Shown here one piece after another: positions 1 to 12,121 of a stretch of 64,000 bases of DNA. The stretch's first letter is position 1. Every line of letters begins with the position of its first letter. The stretch is from Gemmatimonadota bacterium (GTDB lineage Bacteria > Gemmatimonadota > Gemmatimonadetes > Gemmatimonadales > Gemmatimonadaceae). The stretch is from positions 1-64,000 of the forward strand of contig DAHUXM010000027.1 in assembly GCA_027307165.1 (NCBI GenBank). Direction: 5' to 3'. Made by a program: the position numbers and the translations under genes. The notes under the pieces were generated by a model. That model was given only the letters and a program-made list of their open reading frames with translations, made no database searches and had not been told where the DNA came from.

Positions 1-111
1 CGCCTACTTGAACCGCTCGGGTACCTTCCGCCGGCGGAATACGAAGCGCAGTTTCAGGAGCAGTTTCAGGAACTCCAGATCGCAACACCGGCGGCTGGAG
101 CACTCAAATAA
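1..111 (+). CDS. IS3-family transposase (OrfB), C-terminal 36 residues
   Basis: The frame is open from base 1 and ends at TAA 109-111. The tail contains RLLEPLGYLPPAEYEAQF, a characteristic end of IS3-family OrfB integrases, in which the RNase-H-like DDE domain is followed by a 'GY.PPAEYE' segment. Only the extreme C-terminus is present, so catalytic residues cannot be judged. The glutamine-rich end and the closeness of the stop to the terminal inverted repeat are normal for this family. Confidence 0.8.
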   Translation, partial: RLLEPLGYLPPAEYEAQFQEQFQELQIATPAAGALK

Positions 112-113
112 CC

Positions 114-141
114 GAGCCTCCGATAAACCCGGGGCGATTCA
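114..141 (+). repeat. IS3-type terminal inverted repeat (right)
   Basis: This 28-base GC-rich end begins GAGCCTCC and ends GGGGCGATTCA. Base 141 is taken as the outer boundary because the interrupted DUF499 reading frame starts at 142. The partner repeat is outside the window. Confidence 0.65.
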
Positions 142-323
142 GTGACAATCTTGGTGAGATCACGCGCTGGATGAGTGTTCTGAAAGAACAGCGTCGGATC
201 ACTGTACACGTCTGGCGCGCCATGGCCGGAAACGACGTCGCCGAAGTCTGCGGCGAAGATCGCGTCTTTAAGGTCACCGGAGAGAACGTCCTTACGCGGG
301 GTGCACGTTTTTAGGATACCCAT
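142..323 (-). pseudogene. DUF499-family ATPase, N-terminal 60 residues, interrupted by the IS3 element
   Basis: The 60 residues before the IS boundary carry the conserved start of DUF499 proteins: TCTPRKDVLSG, a short FAADFGDV stretch, VYSDPTLFFQNTHPA and then a helix. The family normally continues for about 1000 residues with a P-loop ATPase; here it stops at the insertion. Codons read beyond base 142 are IS sequence and not part of the protein. Known DUF499 proteins occur in anti-phage islands, for example with DUF1156 and DUF3780 proteins. The ATG is 57 bases downstream of the preceding same-strand gene, so it may belong to the same operon. A TATAAT (337-332 on the minus strand) lies just upstream and may give a nearly leaderless transcript. 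Confidence 0.75.
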
Positions 324-380
324 GGAGCTTAATTATATGGTCCAGGAGAGAGAGCATTATGAAGTAGTGTGATTCTGACC

Positions 381-1259
381 CTAGAGTCGATCCCGCTGAT
401 ATTGCAGATCAAGATCCACATCAAAGAGATCCAGATCCATCATCGTACTGTATGTGAATAGTAGATCGTTAATGCATTCTCCCTTTACAATCGTGATTCC
501 AGGAGCCGCATTGATCGATGTCATGAATGGAGTAAAGAAGTCGCGGTTGAATTCGCCAATCGAGATCTCATCATTGATCAACTTGCTATTGAGAACGAAG
601 TAAAATACGAGATTGTAATCCTCGTTGGGCCCGAGTTCTCGGTTATTCAGCACTTTTATATAGATATCTCGCAGCCGAGGACCCGCTTTTTTCTGGAGCT
701 GCCTAATCTTTGCGCGTCGCAGCTTCATTCGCTCCATGAGTGCATCAGGGAATGCGGTACGCTGATATCTGCGGCCTAACCAAGCTAGAACCAATTCTGA
801 GTCCGCATCCGATAGCGCGTTCGTATCCGGACGTGAGTCCGCTAAGGCTGGACGACTTAGGTCCCCGCGATCTCGGGAATTGAGCTCCACAGCGCCCTCA
901 TCCAATGACAAGTGCAATTTTCTAGGATTGCGCGCCCGTGTGAACTCTTCCGCAATGGCGTCGATCGAGCGGCCAATAATCACCTCGACAACTGGTTCGT
1001 GGTCGAAATCATGACAGAGTATGTCGCACGGATGCGATACGACAATAATTCTACTTGATGCATCTGGCGTTGTAGCACCCGGCCGCCATACTACTTGCGC
1101 CCGCAAGTCGTCGGGTAGGAACACTCCTGTTCGCCAGCGATGGCTGGCAATGCGTGTACGAAGCACGGTCGAACCGTTGCTGACTATGCCAGATCGTGTC
1201 TCGTCTTTATCCTTCGCTTCGGAAGTATTAGCTCTCGCGTTCGCACCAGGCATTGTCAT
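381..1259 (-). CDS. Conserved hypothetical protein with SHPCDI motif, defence-like context
   Basis: This 292-residue soluble protein has no signal peptide or clear membrane segment. The N-terminal half has VVSHPCDILCHD followed by EPVVEVIIGR and, further on, NPRKLHL. I recall an 'S-H/Q-x-CDI ... EPxVE ... NPRxLHL' pattern from unnamed proteins in variable genome regions, but I cannot name a family. The middle (about residues 155-215) is helical and charged; the C-terminal 75 residues are acidic. It starts 15 bases after the upstream membrane/HTH gene and is followed by the broken DUF499 gene, so it is probably cotranscribed with both. Base composition is clearly less GC-rich than the housekeeping genes of the window, suggesting transfer. 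A catalytic role for the Cys/His/Asp cluster is possible but unproven. Confidence 0.65.
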   Translation of the reverse strand: MTMPGANARANTSEAKDKDETRSGIVSNGSTVLRTRIASHRWRTGVFLPDDLRAQVVWRPGATTPDASSRIIVVSHPCDILCHDFDHEPVVEVIIGRSIDAIAEEFTRARNPRKLHLSLDEGAVELNSRDRGDLSRPALADSRPDTNALSDADSELVLAWLGRRYQRTAFPDALMERMKLRRAKIRQLQKKAGPRLRDIYIKVLNNRELGPNEDYNLVFYFVLNSKLINDEISIGEFNRDFFTPFMTSINAAPGITIVKGECINDLLFTYSTMMDLDLFDVDLDLQYQRDRL

Positions 1260-1274
1260 CTAGTTCTAGAACCA

Positions 1275-2198
1275 CTATACCTGACCACGGGCGCGTTGCG
1301 ATGTTACACGAATCCGACGCTGAACAGTCTCGGCGGGAGTAGCATCACTTGAATATGCGTCGATGATTTCGCTCAGCGAACGTTGATCGCCCATACGCAG
1401 TTCAGTAAACGCAGAGGCAGCAAGCCGCCTTTGAGCCTGCTCTGTTGATATTGTATTGAATGCAGCTGTTAGCCGAGCCTTCAATGCGCGTCTTGTTGAC
1501 GGGTTGGTGGCTGAGACGAACTCACGTAGTAGGAGTTTTACGGAGCGTCCTTCGCTTACTGGAGAAGACACATATGTGCCGAGAGGCTCGTCGCTTTTTT
1601 CGCTCCATTCCATTGCAAGATCCGAGAGTGCCGCCAATCGTTGCGTCGCAGCGGAGTACGGATTCGACCCATTCAACCATCCGTATACTGAACGTCGCGA
1701 AACATTGAGTACCCATGCAACCTCAGTCACATTCAGCGAAAGGAATCCCTGGATTGCCCCAAGCCGCTCGTTAGTCCCAACCGGGCTATGGCGTTGACTG
1801 GATACGCTGGCCTGATGCGGTTGCCAGTCTTGGACTGTCGGGCTCAAGAACGAGTCCCGATCCCATAGCGATGCGGCGTCCGCGGTCGGTGCTGCACGAG
1901 CCCCGGGCGGTGTCGCCTTTAGCGTACCTCCCGATCCCAACACCAGCGCTCCACACAACGCTATTACAATCGCTCCAGTCGATGGTGTCCAGTCCGGTCC
2001 GGAAGAGGAACCGTACCCGCCGACCAGCTTGAGCTGTTCCTCGGTCGATGAACCGATAGCACCGAGCTGATACCACTCGATAATTGGGATTTCGTGAGGA
2101 GCGCGAATTGCGTCGAGTGCCTCGAACAGCACTGAGGGATTGCTTGGGACTGGCGGATCGGGCGAAAGCGTGGCTTCTATCATTTGCATCCCCTTCAT
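1275..2198 (-). CDS. Membrane-anchored helix-turn-helix protein of the TIGR04255 cassette
   Basis: The 307-residue protein has three visible parts. The N-terminal region (1-70) is acidic. A single hydrophobic segment follows at about 73-92 (GAIVIALCGALVLGSGG). A helix-turn-helix lies at about 148-182 (LNVTEVAWVLNVSRRSVYGW), of the kind seen in XRE/MerR-like DNA-binding folds, and an alpha-helical C-terminus follows. It could sense a membrane or partner signal and act on DNA, or the HTH may bind a protein. ATG 2198 overlaps the upstream stop by ATGA. A second ATG at 2183 has AAGGGG at ideal distance and may be the true start (302 residues). It is sandwiched between the TIGR04255 gene and the SHPCDI gene. 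Low GC suggests recent acquisition. Confidence 0.6.
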   Translation of the reverse strand: MKGMQMIEATLSPDPPVPSNPSVLFEALDAIRAPHEIPIIEWYQLGAIGSSTEEQLKLVGGYGSSSGPDWTPSTGAIVIALCGALVLGSGGTLKATPPGARAAPTADAASLWDRDSFLSPTVQDWQPHQASVSSQRHSPVGTNERLGAIQGFLSLNVTEVAWVLNVSRRSVYGWLNGSNPYSAATQRLAALSDLAMEWSEKSDEPLGTYVSSPVSEGRSVKLLLREFVSATNPSTRRALKARLTAAFNTISTEQAQRRLAASAFTELRMGDQRSLSEIIDAYSSDATPAETVQRRIRVTSQRARGQV

Positions 2199-3115
2199 TC
2201 CCTCGCTGACTTTGCTACAGCATTGTTCACCTTGTCATTCGGAATCGTCTCCCCTGCCTCCGCTTTAGTTTGCCACTTCGCCCGTGCATGAGGGGTCGTC
2301 GCACTGGCGAATGCTTCGCTAAGAACACTATGAAGAGAATCCAGTATTCTCAACACGTTCTCTTCGGTCAGTTCGACATTCGTAGCTTCATTTTGGAAGT
2401 CAGCAAAATGATCAAAGTCCAACGTCAGCCCAGGCCGCGTCGCCGCATAAGTCTGATGCAGCTTTTCACCGTCAGGTGTACAAATGCGAAACGTGAGTGG
2501 ACTATCCGCTATGTCCGGCGGTAGTACCTGCGGCCCAGGCATACTGACACTTCGAACAATCAGTTGTCCAAGTCCCGTGGTGGCACTGGATACAACCTGA
2601 AGTGTCCTGGGACTATTAGGCAGAATCGACACATCTGAAAACGAGAACCCCACTAGACCGGGGACAACGTATTCTTCAATAGTATCGCCTTGTGCCGGCA
2701 CAACCCGGTCCGTGTACCGCAAGCCTACACGCTGAATGAGCGCACCCTCTGTTACACCGCCGCTACCAGTAAACACGGCCTCGAGAACTTTCGTGAGATC
2801 CTCGGCGAACCGCTCATAATCCTCATACTCACTTGTAGCAAATACAATTGAGTTTGAAGTTACCCATGCAACACGAGTCCGACTTCGGTGGAGGAATTGG
2901 AAACGGTCACTCATAGCGACGCGATTGCCCGCGGCATTTATTTGCGGGGAGATGTTGATCGCCAGATTCATTAGTTGCTGTTTTACGTAGTGCGGATATC
3001 CCGCTTTGATAAAGCGTCCTTGGATTTCTGGAATCCGTTCAACGAGAGGCAGCACTTGCGTGAAGACGACTTGCGCGAGCGTATGGATGACTGGTGCGTG
3101 ACTAAAGCGGGGCAT
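2195..3115 (-). CDS. TIGR04255 family protein
   Basis: The 306-residue product begins MPRFSHAPVIHTLAQVVF, matching the start of TIGR04255 proteins, which are sporadically distributed, about 260 residues long and of unknown function. Further family-like features are the mixed alpha/beta core with RVGLRYTDRV near the middle and a C-terminal segment LDFDHFADF followed by a helix with LDSLHSVLSEAF. An upstream in-frame GTG (3142) is possible, but the 3115 ATG fits the family start better. It is the first gene of the minus-strand cassette and overlaps the next gene. Members are often found beside unknown genes in variable islands; no biochemical role is established. Confidence 0.7.
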   Translation of the reverse strand: MPRFSHAPVIHTLAQVVFTQVLPLVERIPEIQGRFIKAGYPHYVKQQLMNLAINISPQINAAGNRVAMSDRFQFLHRSRTRVAWVTSNSIVFATSEYEDYERFAEDLTKVLEAVFTGSGGVTEGALIQRVGLRYTDRVVPAQGDTIEEYVVPGLVGFSFSDVSILPNSPRTLQVVSSATTGLGQLIVRSVSMPGPQVLPPDIADSPLTFRICTPDGEKLHQTYAATRPGLTLDFDHFADFQNEATNVELTEENVLRILDSLHSVLSEAFASATTPHARAKWQTKAEAGETIPNDKVNNAVAKSARE

Positions 3116-3151
3116 GGAATTCCCGGTCAGGGTCCTAATCACTGATGCAGT

Positions 3152-3168: not shown

Positions 3169-3402
3169 TTATCGACGTCTCGCTTACAGCGTTACAGTAA
3201 ATTATACATGAAATGATACAGCAAAGCTTACGCCTAATCTGCTATAGCCACCTCTATAAGGCAAACTTTAATGCATACATACCGGCTGGACGCGTATGGT
3301 AGACGGCAGAGGGGAACGGGCTCCTCACAAGCCGTAACCGCCAGGAGATGATAAGCTGGACTGGACCGCCCTCGCCCTGACAGTCTGCGGGTAATCATTC
3401 TA

Positions 3403-4101
3403 TCACTTAGCGCTGTTCTCCAGCCCGGTCAGCAATGTGCCAACCACCTTCCGCGACATCCCCATCCTCGCCTCCGACCAGGCCCCATCCCGACTCTGCT
3501 TCCCCCCCAACCCCTCGTCGATAAACTCCCCCACCAACCCATGCAGCATCGCCGCGAGCGCGAGCCCGAAATCCTCGGCATCGCCCGCCCTTACCACCCC
3601 CGCCTTCTGCGCCTCTCTGATCGGCCTGACCAACGCCTCAAAGGCAGTCATCTTGATCGCCGCCAGCCGCGAGTACGCCTCGCTGCTCGAGTGCGGAATC
3701 TCCCCCGCCTGGAACATCTCGTCAAAAAACTCCAGCGGCCGAGCCAGCCGATGGCTGAACAGCACTCTATATAGATCAGGGTTCTGAACTCCGAACCCCA
3801 CATATCGCAGCCCGATCTCTACGATCCGTCCTCGCGGATCGCTCTTCGCCGGCGCCCGTTCCATCTCCGCGATCAGCTCGCCGAACCCTTCCTCGGCGAT
3901 CCAGGCCAGCAGTTCCGGCAGGCCGTGAGCGAAGTGACGGTATGGTGCTGCGGACGACAATCCCGCCGCCTTCGCCGCCGCCCGGACGCTCAGCCCGTCC
4001 AGCCCATCCGAGTCCAGAATCCGCCTGGCCTCCCGGGCTATCGCCCGCTTGGTATCCTGCTCGTCCACTGCAGCTGACTCCGCTCGGCCCTTTCCGGCCA
4101 T
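3403..4101 (-). CDS. TetR/AcrR family transcriptional regulator
   Basis: The 232-residue protein has the TetR N-terminal HTH at about 20-62 (ILDSDGLDGLSVRAAAKAAG then SSAAPYRHF). The following ligand-binding region resembles the WHG-type C-terminal domain (RYVGFGVQNPDLYRVLF). A strong ribosome site (GAGGGAGGAATTCC-ATG) supports this start. It is divergent from the retropepsin-like gene at 4245, and a perfect inverted repeat lies in the shared intergenic space, consistent with autorepression and control of the neighbour. The effector is unknown. Confidence 0.92.
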   Translation of the reverse strand: MAGKGRAESAAVDEQDTKRAIAREARRILDSDGLDGLSVRAAAKAAGLSSAAPYRHFAHGLPELLAWIAEEGFGELIAEMERAPAKSDPRGRIVEIGLRYVGFGVQNPDLYRVLFSHRLARPLEFFDEMFQAGEIPHSSSEAYSRLAAIKMTAFEALVRPIREAQKAGVVRAGDAEDFGLALAAMLHGLVGEFIDEGLGGKQSRDGAWSEARMGMSRKVVGTLLTGLENSAK

Positions 4102-6713: not shown

Positions 6714-7030
6714 TGGATGGGACTCCTTTATGGATTCCGTGATCCGGTTAGTTGTACAGGTCGGTGCACTGTCTAAGCGTAGTAACTTGTTGGCGCCGAG
6801 TCCATCCGGTGCATCATCTCGCCCCCGTCCAGTTGACCAGCGTCAGTGGTGCCCGGGACACGCCTGACCAATCGCCCGGCTGCCCTGCATGGCAGATGAA
6901 TGCCGACACAGGCCGATACGCACCGCCAAGCCCCGACGGGTACCCCGGGAATGTCTGGCGTACCGCCTATAATTGCTGCACCGTTATCACGTGGCCGTTC
7001 ACCCATAGCCTCCGTACCCCACCATCCCTG

Positions 7031-8158
7031 ATGCCATCCTCTACCAAGACGCAGCGCTGGATCGATCTCATCGCCGCCCTTCTCGCGAACCGGCTTCCCA
7101 GCTCGTTCGAGCGTCTCGCGCGCGAAGTCCCTGCGTACATGGCAGATGGCAGCGTGCAGGCTGGCAAGCCTTCCGCATCGGTCAAGCGCATGTTCGAGCG
7201 CGACAAGAAGGAGCTTCACGCGTTCGGGATCCCGATCGAAAGAATCGGCGACGACGGCGATCCCGATGCTGCATACAGCCTGCGCTCGAATGATTTCTAT
7301 CTTCCCTATCTCTCACTGAACACCCCCAGCGGAGCGAGGGCAACGAGCTCTGCAAGAAGCACCGATCGCTACGGCTACAGATCGCTCAGCAGGCTAGCCT
7401 TTGAGCCCGACGAACTTGCCGCACTCGCGTCCGCAGGCAAGCGCGCGCAGGAGCTCGGTGATCCCGCACTCGCCGTCGAGGCACGGAACGCGCTGCGCAA
7501 GCTGGCCTTCGATCTACCGATCGATCCCGATCACACCAACGGCGTCGACACGAAGCTCGACTCAGCTGGTGAGCGCATCGTACTTCCGCGCCCGGTGTCC
7601 AGCAGAGAAGTACTGCAATCGCTCGGCGATGCTCTCATCCGTCGCAAGACCGTTGAATTCAGCTACAACTCGATGAGCGCCGGAGTCGTGAGCGAGCGCA
7701 CCGTCGAGCCATACGGTGTCTTCTTTCTCAACGGTCACTGGTATCTCGCCGCGCGCGAGGCCGACACGGACGGCGACACGGTCAAGAACTTTCGCGTGAG
7801 CAGAATCAACAATGCGCGCGTCAACACCAGACGATCGGAAAGCGCGGACTACAAGATCCCGGCATCGTTCAAACTCCGCGATCACGGACAATCACGTCAG
7901 GCCTGGGAACTCGGTGGTGGCGAGACCATCTCCGCAGTAGTCGATTTCATCGGTGACTCCGGCGCAACGGTCGCCGGCGCCGAGCTCGGCGCTCCGGAGG
8001 ATGACATCCGTCACCTGCGGAGGTTTCGCGTGCGTCGCATGGATGCATTCGTTCGATGGCTGCTGTCATTTGGCGGCGAGGCAATTCCCCTACAGCCGCC
8101 AGAACTCGTGAATGCGTTTCACGAACAGATTGCGGCGACTCTCGCACTTTACGAATGA
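7031..8158 (+). CDS. WYL-domain transcriptional regulator (PafB/PafC type), first of pair
   Basis: The open frame begins earlier, but MPSSTKTQRWIDLIAALLAN at 7031 fits the family start. Residues 1-70 form an HTH-like domain (LIAALLANRLPSSFERLAREV), with a linker to about 190. The WYL domain spans roughly 195-300, with EPYGVFFLNGHWYLAARE and the arginine-rich strand KNFRVSRI. A C-terminal domain closes at 375 residues. WYL proteins bind single-stranded DNA or nucleotide ligands and control DNA-damage, CRISPR or defence genes; PafBC works as a heterodimer. The stop overlaps the start of the second WYL gene (ATGA), so the two are translationally coupled and probably form a complex. Confidence 0.88.
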   Translation: MPSSTKTQRWIDLIAALLANRLPSSFERLAREVPAYMADGSVQAGKPSASVKRMFERDKKELHAFGIPIERIGDDGDPDAAYSLRSNDFYLPYLSLNTPSGARATSSARSTDRYGYRSLSRLAFEPDELAALASAGKRAQELGDPALAVEARNALRKLAFDLPIDPDHTNGVDTKLDSAGERIVLPRPVSSREVLQSLGDALIRRKTVEFSYNSMSAGVVSERTVEPYGVFFLNGHWYLAAREADTDGDTVKNFRVSRINNARVNTRRSESADYKIPASFKLRDHGQSRQAWELGGGETISAVVDFIGDSGATVAGAELGAPEDDIRHLRRFRVRRMDAFVRWLLSFGGEAIPLQPPELVNAFHEQIAATLALYE

Positions 8159-9177
8159 GCCGAGCAAGCAGGGTTTCCGGCGATGGTGCGCGCGACGCAG
8201 GGCCCGCTGCACAGGACACCGCCGCGGCTCAGCTCCGTCGCCTTCTGCACGTGATACCGCGCATCGCCGACGGTCGGGAGCATCCCATCTCGCGCCTTGC
8301 GCGCATCGCTGGTGTGGAGGACAATCGCCAGCTCATCGCGGATCTCGAATCACTTGTCGATCGCTTCGACATGCCCGGTGGGTTTGTCGAGGGTGTACAA
8401 GTGTGGATCGACGGCAAGACAGTCTCGGTGGTGAGCGATCATTTCCGCCGGCCGATGCGACTCACCATGCCGGAACTGTGCGCGCTGCAACTCGGACTCG
8501 CCGTGCTTCGATCCGAGCGTCCACCGGCTGAGCACGCCGTCTTCGAGCGCACACTCGAGCGTCTTCGCAGGATCATAACTGTGCTTCCGCAGAACAGGGC
8601 GCAGGAAGACATTCGCGCAGCGAGGCTCGATGCGCCTGGCGACAGGACGCACCTGGCGGCGATTCGAAAGGCACTCGGTGCTCAGCACAGGATTCGGCTC
8701 GAATATCGTGGGGGAAGCGCGCACAGATCGACGTGGCGCACCGTCTGTCCTTACGGAATACTCTTCGCGAGCGGAGCGTGGTACGTCGCGGCGCACTGCG
8801 ACTCCAGCAACGGATTGCGTTTCTTTCGTCTCGACCGGATCGAAGCAACGGAGTCCACCGAAGAGCCGTACACCATCCCGCCTGAGTTCAGCCTCGATTC
8901 CATTGCCAGCAACGGGCAGGTTTTGGACGGGACGCCGATCACCACGATGCAGGTGCGCTACTCGGCCCGAATCGCGCGCTGGATCGCCGAGCGTGATGAG
9001 ATGACGCTCGAGGGCGACGGCACGCTCGTCGTCGATCATCCGGTGCATGACGTCGAGTGGGCGATTCGGCACGTGCTGCAGTACGGGCCGGACGCGGAGA
9101 TAGCAGCGCCGCCCGAGATGCGCGCGGAGATGGTACGGCGGCTGGTGACGATGCGGGACGGAGTGGGGACGGAGTAG
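8155..9177 (+). CDS. WYL-domain transcriptional regulator, second of pair
   Basis: The 340-residue partner of the preceding WYL gene starts at the ATG overlapping its stop. The N-terminus is a degenerate HTH (LLHVIPRIADGREHPISRLA); the WYL core has CPYGILFASGAWYVAAH and LRFFRLDRI, with the Leu of WYL replaced by Val. The C-terminal region ends HDVEWAIRHVLQYGPDAEI, the usual WCX-type segment. Gene order and lengths match PafB-PafC pairs. The likely role is a heterodimeric activator or repressor responding to a nucleic-acid ligand; targets are not visible. Downstream there is a 153-base gap before the porin-like gene. Confidence 0.88.
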   Translation: MSRASRVSGDGARDAGPAAQDTAAAQLRRLLHVIPRIADGREHPISRLARIAGVEDNRQLIADLESLVDRFDMPGGFVEGVQVWIDGKTVSVVSDHFRRPMRLTMPELCALQLGLAVLRSERPPAEHAVFERTLERLRRIITVLPQNRAQEDIRAARLDAPGDRTHLAAIRKALGAQHRIRLEYRGGSAHRSTWRTVCPYGILFASGAWYVAAHCDSSNGLRFFRLDRIEATESTEEPYTIPPEFSLDSIASNGQVLDGTPITTMQVRYSARIARWIAERDEMTLEGDGTLVVDHPVHDVEWAIRHVLQYGPDAEIAAPPEMRAEMVRRLVTMRDGVGTE

Positions 9178-11411: not shown

Positions 11412-11648
11412 GTGACGCCCAAGCAGATCATCTACTCCGATCATGCTGAACGACGTCTCACTACTCGTAGAATCACCAGACAGAACGTGCGGCGACTTCT
11501 CGCAACGGGGACGCGTACGATGGCACCTACTGCTAGCGGCGCACAGCGTTGGCAATGCACCGGGAAGCTGGATGACCATGACGCCGCCGTGATATTTATC
11601 GAGGACGCAACGACGATCCTGGTGGTGACCGTCATGTGGGATGATTAA
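11412..11648 (+). CDS. DUF4258 domain protein (possible toxin)
   Basis: The 78-residue basic protein starts at GTG. It shows the DUF4258 pattern: YSDHAERRLTTRRITRQNVR, a GxR-like central strand and a C-terminal beta-pair ending ILVVTVMWDD. DUF4258 proteins resemble the RelE/HigB fold and commonly pair with a DUF2283 protein. The next gene begins 23 bases downstream and carries DUF2283, so the two are probably one operon. Catalytic residues of RelE-type ribonucleases are not clearly conserved, so toxin activity is inference. Confidence 0.75.
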   Translation: MTPKQIIYSDHAERRLTTRRITRQNVRRLLATGTRTMAPTASGAQRWQCTGKLDDHDAAVIFIEDATTILVVTVMWDD

Positions 11649-11671
11649 CAGACTTCCGAGAGAAGCGACCG

Positions 11672-12121
11672 ATGAAACTCACATATGACCCGCAGGCCGA
11701 CGCTCTCATGATCATCCTCGTTGAGCGCCGCACAAGAGCTGCTCAACGACATCTCGTCACCCGCGAAATCGCACCAGCCATGTACCTTGATCTGGATGCG
11801 CGCGGCAATCCCGTGTCCATCGAAATCCTCGATGCGAGCGCGCGCATCCCACGCAAGCAGCTCAACGCTCTCCCGTCACCAGCGCGAATCCTTTCGCTCG
11901 CACACGCGGCGAAGGAAAGCCGGCTCTCACCTGACACACTTCGGCGCCAGATCAACAACGGGCGGCTCAAGGCCACAAAACGGGGCCGAGATTGGGCAGT
12001 GTCGGCAACCGATCTTCTGAACTATCTGGAATCGCGGGACACTCGCGGACGACCATCGCGACTGGACCCGTCGGCCCGCTTCCAACTCGATCGTCGAAGG
12101 GTACTTTCCTCTTCATCCTGA
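11672..12121 (+). CDS. DUF2283 protein fused to an excisionase-like HTH (possible antitoxin)
   Basis: Residues 1-60 match DUF2283 (MKLTYDPQADALMIIL, AMYLDLDARGNPVSIEILDA). Residues 75-115 form a MerR/excisionase-type HTH (LAHAAKESRLSPDTLRRQIN, ending RDWAVSATDLLNYL). The 149-residue length is longer than lone DUF2283 proteins because of this second domain. The fusion gives the putative antitoxin a DNA-binding part, so it could autoregulate the DUF4258/DUF2283 pair. It ends 41 bases from the convergent kinase gene. The SD is GAGAGAAGCGACCG before ATG. Confidence 0.75.
   Translation: MKLTYDPQADALMIILVERRTRAAQRHLVTREIAPAMYLDLDARGNPVSIEILDASARIPRKQLNALPSPARILSLAHAAKESRLSPDTLRRQINNGRLKATKRGRDWAVSATDLLNYLESRDTRGRPSRLDPSARFQLDRRRVLSSSS

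Follow-up and report, generated by a model that had tools for sequence, protein, structure and literature searches.

Does the low-G+C gene group at the left edge of a contig of a Gemmatimonadota bacterium (GenBank assembly GCA_027307165.1, contig DAHUXM010000027.1) form one functional unit, and if so, which genes belong to it and what might they do? The DNA analyzed, hereafter the window, covers 64,000 nucleotides starting at the first base of this contig (C7 in our numbering; window base 1 is contig base 1), within a 3.7-Mb, 98%-complete genome in 37 contigs. A sequence-only reading had described here a foreign, undescribed cassette of four genes and suspected a defense module. We found that three of these genes, coding for a TIGR04255 protein, a helix-turn-helix (HTH) protein, and a protein of no known family, travel as one unit in one order, and that a repeated-box element before them follows the presence of the HTH gene.

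All four open reading frame (ORF) starts are on the minus strand, with an ATGA overlap (2195-2198), a 15-base gap (1260-1274), and a 57-base gap (324-380), as described, and the low G+C content was borne out, the three leftmost kilobases being the lowest of the 64 (51.4, 55.2, and 52.4%). Gene 1 (2195-3115, minus strand; we prefer the ATG at 3115 to the GTG at 3142, where the earlier annotation ended) matches the NCBIfam model TIGR04255 with an E value of 7.7e-31 and 107.8 bits (cut-off, 30). Its structure model (predicted local distance difference test [pLDDT] of 80.6, predicted template modeling score of 0.80) gave fold matches to guanidino kinases and TATA-binding protein (TBP), with Z up to 8.3, which we read as a common arrangement; SecB was absent among the matches listed. 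Gene 2 (1275-2198, minus strand), a candidate autorepressor or antitoxin, codes for an HTH protein of 307 aa in which one stretch near the N terminus is hydrophobic (residues 75-93, Kyte-Doolittle mean of 1.95), and its HTH, found only by sub-threshold profile matches, is conserved in 26 sequences. Gene 3 (381-1259, minus strand), the candidate effector, codes for a 292-aa protein with WRQG and S-[HQ]-x-C-D motifs, in which a predicted MazF/CcdB-fold domain (ca. residues 35-170) is followed by a C-terminal domain. It had zero matches in Pfam, NCBIfam, and PADLOC; PADLOC-DB 2.0.0 (2023) gave none for genes 1 to 3, for 13 gene-3 members, or for 11 gene-1 members, and a search of solved structures by sequence gave none for gene 3 (best E value, 0.98) or gene 1.

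Relatives were gathered by searching with gene 3. It is present in 5 of 395 genomes of the phylum Gemmatimonadota (its own genome counted), and the order TIGR04255-HTH-gene 3 was found in all five. The nine plasmid records with gene 3, of 201,822 to 585,976 bases and from Gloeocapsopsis, Gloeocapsa, Robbsia, Klebsiella, Mesorhizobium, Meiothermus, Acinetobacter, and two Pseudomonas, all hold the complete trio, in surroundings that vary and in which DUF499, the family of the fourth gene, is absent. A scan of genome contigs gave 26 gene-3 loci, 25 of them with the trio; in the exception (L040; L and G numbers denote loci and genomes in our collection) the start of gene 3 is lost. The trio was also found in four of five viral contigs with gene 3, the remaining one having a gene-3 fragment, and in one Acinetobacter phage record. 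Some of these loci are repeats: among the five phylum genomes, two are represented again by the contigs L026 and L033, and L034 belongs to the species of plasmid L021. A blastn search of Escherichia coli genomes with the Klebsiella plasmid trio gave zero matches.

Pairwise protein distances over 30 loci were correlated at r values of 0.956 (genes 1 and 2), 0.958 (genes 1 and 3), and 0.924 (genes 2 and 3), with 0 of 2,000 permutations as high, which speaks for joint inheritance of the three proteins, not for function. Genes 2 and 3 are neighbors in every trio locus, the presumed regulator gene before the presumed effector gene. Gene 3 without gene 2 was seen only as damaged copies (L040 and L184) and never as an intact gene alone, as expected if gene 3 were toxic by itself, while L100 and L102 hold genes 1 and 2 with gene 3 undetectable. 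Two peculiarities of single loci may be added: downstream in L100 there is a stray TIGR04255-like fragment, and in Rugamonas (L037:8702-9985) genes 1 and 2 form a single ORF that lacks the hydrophobic segment of gene 2.

The repeated-box element (3183-3220, minus strand), a candidate operator, consists in the window of TGTATC, TGTATA, and TGTAAC, 12 bp apart, and then TGTAAG 8 bp on. Alignment of nine upstream regions gave the form TGTMAA-N6-TGTAAA-N-TGTMAA-N6-TGTMAA, which is complete or nearly so in eight of the nine. In 22 of 36 trio loci the four-box score was at least 20 out of 24, with the element in these 22 always 51 to 67 bases ahead of where the TIGR04255 match begins. Of 700 pieces drawn at random from the same loci, 5 scored as high, and some of these may overlap the element itself. 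The exact four-box pattern occurs in 20 of 184 loci, one copy each. When it was used in a protein-blind DNA scan of 2.9 million viral contigs, two contigs matched, both with a TIGR04255 ORF directly behind the boxes; one contains the whole trio, and the second is truncated where the locus ends. The three-box form of the window has one copy in the 64 kb (0 expected from 100 shuffles) and one in the 3.7-Mb genome (0 for the reversed-pattern control), but because the pattern was derived from the window, this shows rarity and not independence. L026, from the same phylum, also has three boxes, and L127 has a weaker form (16 out of 18); none of 500 shuffles reached either.

In a diverged clade of gene 3, labeled TQTCDI, four of five loci have TTCACA-N6-TTCACA before gene 1, a pattern found nowhere else among 187 loci, except in duplicate records of the same four. 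The boxes occur in none of 32 TIGR04255 loci without a recognizable gene 2 and are retained in L100 and L102. This tracking of the HTH gene matches the prediction of autoregulation. Consensus promoters before the trio were no more frequent than in shuffles, and none was found in the upstream region.

Is the DUF499 gene a fourth member? Its ORF has 85 codons (66-323), and the HmaC/DUF499 match is limited to residues 7-61 (PADLOC PDLC00662, E value of 4.3e-8). What remains of this DUF499/HmaC ATPase gene is a 5' piece with ca. 61 codons (142-323, minus strand), outside the cassette; as an insertion sequence truncates it, this is a broken fragment and not a working member. Over 62 aa it shares 79% identity with the N terminus encoded by a DUF499 ORF of full length in another genome (G269). 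A search of its own genome with PF04465 found no further DUF499 gene, and DUF1156 was likewise not found. Among the 395 genomes DUF499 has 41 places in 36 genomes, one of them (in G269) near a TIGR04255 place; fragmented assemblies are common, and adjacency across contigs can be missed in this count. Membership of DUF499 was ruled out from the fragment here, its absence in the nine annotated plasmid neighborhoods, and the single place of 41 near TIGR04255. The neighbor-order search that the sequence-only reading had proposed thus upheld three genes conserved in one order and not the fourth.

According to PMC12839542, DUF499 is tied to defense related to BREX (bacteriophage exclusion); the broken neighbor (142-323) belongs to these Hma/DUF499 systems, but the trio is no component of them, and of their set of ATPase, methyltransferase, and helicase the locus has only the 61-codon fragment. 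The trio might still be an accessory, as sensor or regulator, of the DUF499 system once beside it. The 57-base gap in the window would suit this, as would G269, where DUF499, a small ORF, a DUF1156-like ORF, and a large helicase-like ORF follow on one strand (L178:1817-11720; names other than DUF499 come from sequence) and a different TIGR04255 cassette lies ca. 4.5 kb upstream of this DUF499-methyltransferase-helicase-like set on the same strand. Both families also occur together in ten genomes versus 3.6 expected (TIGR04255 being in 40 and DUF499 in 36 of the 395), with same-clade effects left in. We nevertheless consider an accessory role very improbable, given the rarity of adjacency, the plasmid trios without DUF499, and a tblastn search of 80 loci with the stub and two Meiothermus Hma-type proteins, which matched only G269 (with the stub) and L108 (helicase-like).

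Regarding the activity of gene 3, an AlphaFold model built with 25 sequences (pLDDT of 83.8) matched CcdB in Foldseek (E value of 7.5e-3, probability of 1.00) and MazF in VIA (Z of 9.3, root mean square deviation of 3.3 over 102 residues). The best 50 VIA rows were all MazF-, CcdB-, or CptIN-type toxins, aligned over residues 35-170, with Z from 9.3 at the top to 7.3 at rank 50, above the background of models without a clear match (7 to 8 at the top and 4 to 5 at rank 50). A MazF/CcdB fold is predicted for the N-terminal half from these matches; a fold common to gene 3 and toxins does not equal a common function. Twelve residues are invariant in the 25 sequences (C78, D79, E88, E92, R113, W160, L161, R164, Y165, R167, F170, and F241). 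Comparison of the strand order of the model with the MazF structure would place C78-D79 in the loop behind the strand of the barrel on which MazF has active-site residues.

TIGR04255 is also found with other partners. Among 42 TIGR04255 places with downstream DNA read, a gene of the QG...CD type was recognized by pattern in 11 and by eye in a twelfth (L119); the window and G338, both outside these 42 places, also have one. Most other places have different or no recognizable neighbors. One of them, L096:3932-7058 in G069 (TIGR04255 within a 678-aa ORF, then a 179-aa ORF, RES-domain protein, E value of 1.1e-11), is, judged by its sequence, an alternative TIGR04255 cassette. RES-domain toxins are described as NAD-depleting in published work. 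A constant first gene with changing downstream genes would fit TIGR04255 as a sensor or adaptor. Profile comparison ties to gene 3 both the TQTCDI clade (E value of 2.4e-8) and small QG...CD proteins (E value of 1.9e-5, probability of 78%). Smaller QG...S-x-S-C-D proteins follow TIGR04255 in L120:4101-5826 and L121:4114-5896, where the middle gene is unlike gene 2 and the boxes are absent; these two loci may represent a second class of such cassettes.

The genomic surroundings bear on the role of the trio. In a sister species of the same genus (G190), which is 87% identical in DNA to the window from window base 3457, a DPPYG methyltransferase and a helicase-like ORF (names from sequence reading) occupy the same chromosomal site beside a TetR gene, and this site looks like a defense hot spot. 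Two small ORFs that look DUF4393- and DUF3800-like also belong to this set, which lies left of TetR (L057:656-5374 and L179:16358-18991). Two plasmids have a DNA methyltransferase and a restriction S subunit 2.5 to 2.9 kb downstream of the trio, and in the viral contig L180 an integrase stands beside it.

In our proposal, to which we give an even chance of being correct, the trio is a toxin-antitoxin-like module of three parts that regulates itself, moves horizontally, and probably acts against phage. The HTH protein would bind the boxes and keep the operon low, and together with the TIGR04255 protein it would keep gene 3 inactive. Gene 3 would be the effector that arrests growth, probably with RNA or a nucleic-acid enzyme as its target and through its own Cys-Asp/Glu/Arg site, and it would be set free by an invading phage or by loss of the element. 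The TIGR04255 protein would serve as an exchangeable sensor or adaptor, and the hydrophobic segment of gene 2, where present, may tether the complex to the membrane. The pairing of sensor and effector suspected earlier is plausible in the form of a regulator and an effector.

Regulator and candidate toxin co-occur in one operon in genes 2 and 3, as in type II toxin-antitoxin modules. As in MazEF and CcdAB, the regulator gene stands directly before a gene of predicted MazF/CcdB fold and a candidate operator precedes the operon; unlike them, the trio adds a third gene (TIGR04255), and many of its gene-2 proteins contain a hydrophobic segment. Its gene 3 is 2 to 3 times longer, differs in its invariant residues, and shows no homology to MazF that sequence comparison could detect. 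In toxin-antitoxin-chaperone systems such as CmdTAC (PMC11618068), three genes likewise lie together, and one of them could detect phage and set the toxin free; their chaperones are described there as SecB-like, whereas TIGR04255 gave guanidino kinase and TBP fold matches and not SecB among those listed. The RptR-controlled defense island (PMC12255303) contains different genes and a different repressor, with 9-bp repeats that include the 6-bp palindrome TAGCTA.

Several observations count against the proposed module. The box spacing in the window is 12-12-8 versus 12-7-12 in most relatives, and the box patterns were picked after the sequences had been seen. L023, L180 to L182, and several distant loci are low on the four-box score, with L023 and L182 no better than shuffles (L180 and L182 have one box pair each), and L089, of the diverged TQTCDI clade, shows no boxes. 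A Kyte-Doolittle mean of 1.6 is reached in only 12 of 26 gene-2 sequences (1.3 in 21 of 26), so a membrane role of gene 2 is not general; the membrane HTH protein of the sequence-only reading keeps its one hydrophobic stretch and its conserved, weakly matched HTH, and "membrane protein" was dropped as the defining trait. In gene 3, the catalytic arginine of MazF is not conserved. An hhalign comparison of the gene-3 profile with a 19-sequence PemK profile equaled the reversed, column-shuffled, and unrelated controls (probability of 0.2%), and four small QG..CD proteins against PemK/MazF gave a probability of 2.0% and an E value of 0.024, in the fold-expected register and not significant. PemK (PF02452) was absent from the Pfam matches of 13 gene-3 members, and homology to MazF/PemK by sequence is unsupported, the profile scores being those of controls.

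Alternatively, the operon would contain no toxin, with gene 2 as a regulator and gene 3 as an enzyme or binding protein with an SH3-barrel domain serving another plasmid or phage function. Gene 3 has no sequence link to MazF/PemK, and its invariant C78, D79, E88, E92, and R113 differ from those of MazF. However, the fold matches are filled by toxins of one fold, and the pattern of loss (genes 1 and 2 kept and gene 3 lost; intact gene 3 never alone) fits a toxin, and we regard this explanation as unlikely.

A further point against the toxin-antitoxin-like defense module is that PADLOC found no enrichment of known defense genes beside the trio, with 113 families in 119 neighbor proteins versus 122 in 119 control proteins (the best 25 of each being listed). 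Neighbors were taken from 20 loci and controls from stretches of the same 20 contigs or plasmids; a crude caller supplied the ORFs, and of 153 control ORFs called, 150 were retained and 119 used. The control set holds strong Hma matches (HmaA and HmaC), very likely from L172, a Meiothermus taiwanensis plasmid, ca. 50 kb from its trio, and is therefore weaker as a defense-free background.

This lack of enrichment, together with the trio on nine plasmids and on temperate-phage contigs, would agree with a toxin-antitoxin-like addiction module that retains plasmids or prophages and has no anti-phage role. Yet the trio is on many chromosomal contigs too, and the site in the window, adjoined by the DUF499 fragment, holds the methyltransferase-helicase set in the sister species. 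Addiction without defense appears rather doubtful to us, and the two roles are not mutually exclusive. Judged by its location, a defense role of the trio is likely, and addiction as its only role would agree with the data nearly to the same degree.

Beyond the trio and the DUF499 fragment, the window begins with the right end of an insertion sequence (1-141, plus strand), which lies at the contig edge, interrupts the DUF499 gene, and presumably belongs to the IS3 family, judged by the transposase C terminus and the end sequence. Bases 1-141 match the end of contig C11 at 100%, and DNA up to base 141 is 84 to 88% alike at three further places of the genome; beyond it, the flanking DNA of the copies differs. 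Elsewhere in the window, two adjacent ORFs (6752-9177, plus strand) look like WYL-type regulators, and a short ORF and, behind it, a DUF2283/HTH-like ORF (11412-12121, plus strand) resemble a small toxin-antitoxin pair.

TIGR04255 is labeled a "sporadic" family. A full-text search of 5.39 million open papers, with subscription papers, preprints, and supplements outside its scope, found no paper on TIGR04255, and no title or abstract start there describes the trio; the cassette can be called foreign and undescribed, the latter meaning not found within that scope. In a broader and more tentative view, which we think possible but would not expect to hold, such trios would be widespread modular immune cassettes, in which TIGR04255 is the interchangeable part that senses phage, the HTH protein an adaptor on the operator (tethered to the membrane in many), and gene 3 an effector of MazF fold whose Cys-Asp active site is new. 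Plasmids and temperate phages would have carried these cassettes through several phyla, and the direct-repeat operator alone would be enough to recognize them. In any case, TIGR04255 gains partner genes, a candidate regulatory element, and a role that can be tested. Should the proposal hold, the trio would be a toxin-like system of three parts whose effector family is new, and its operator would offer a simple DNA signature in the search for others.

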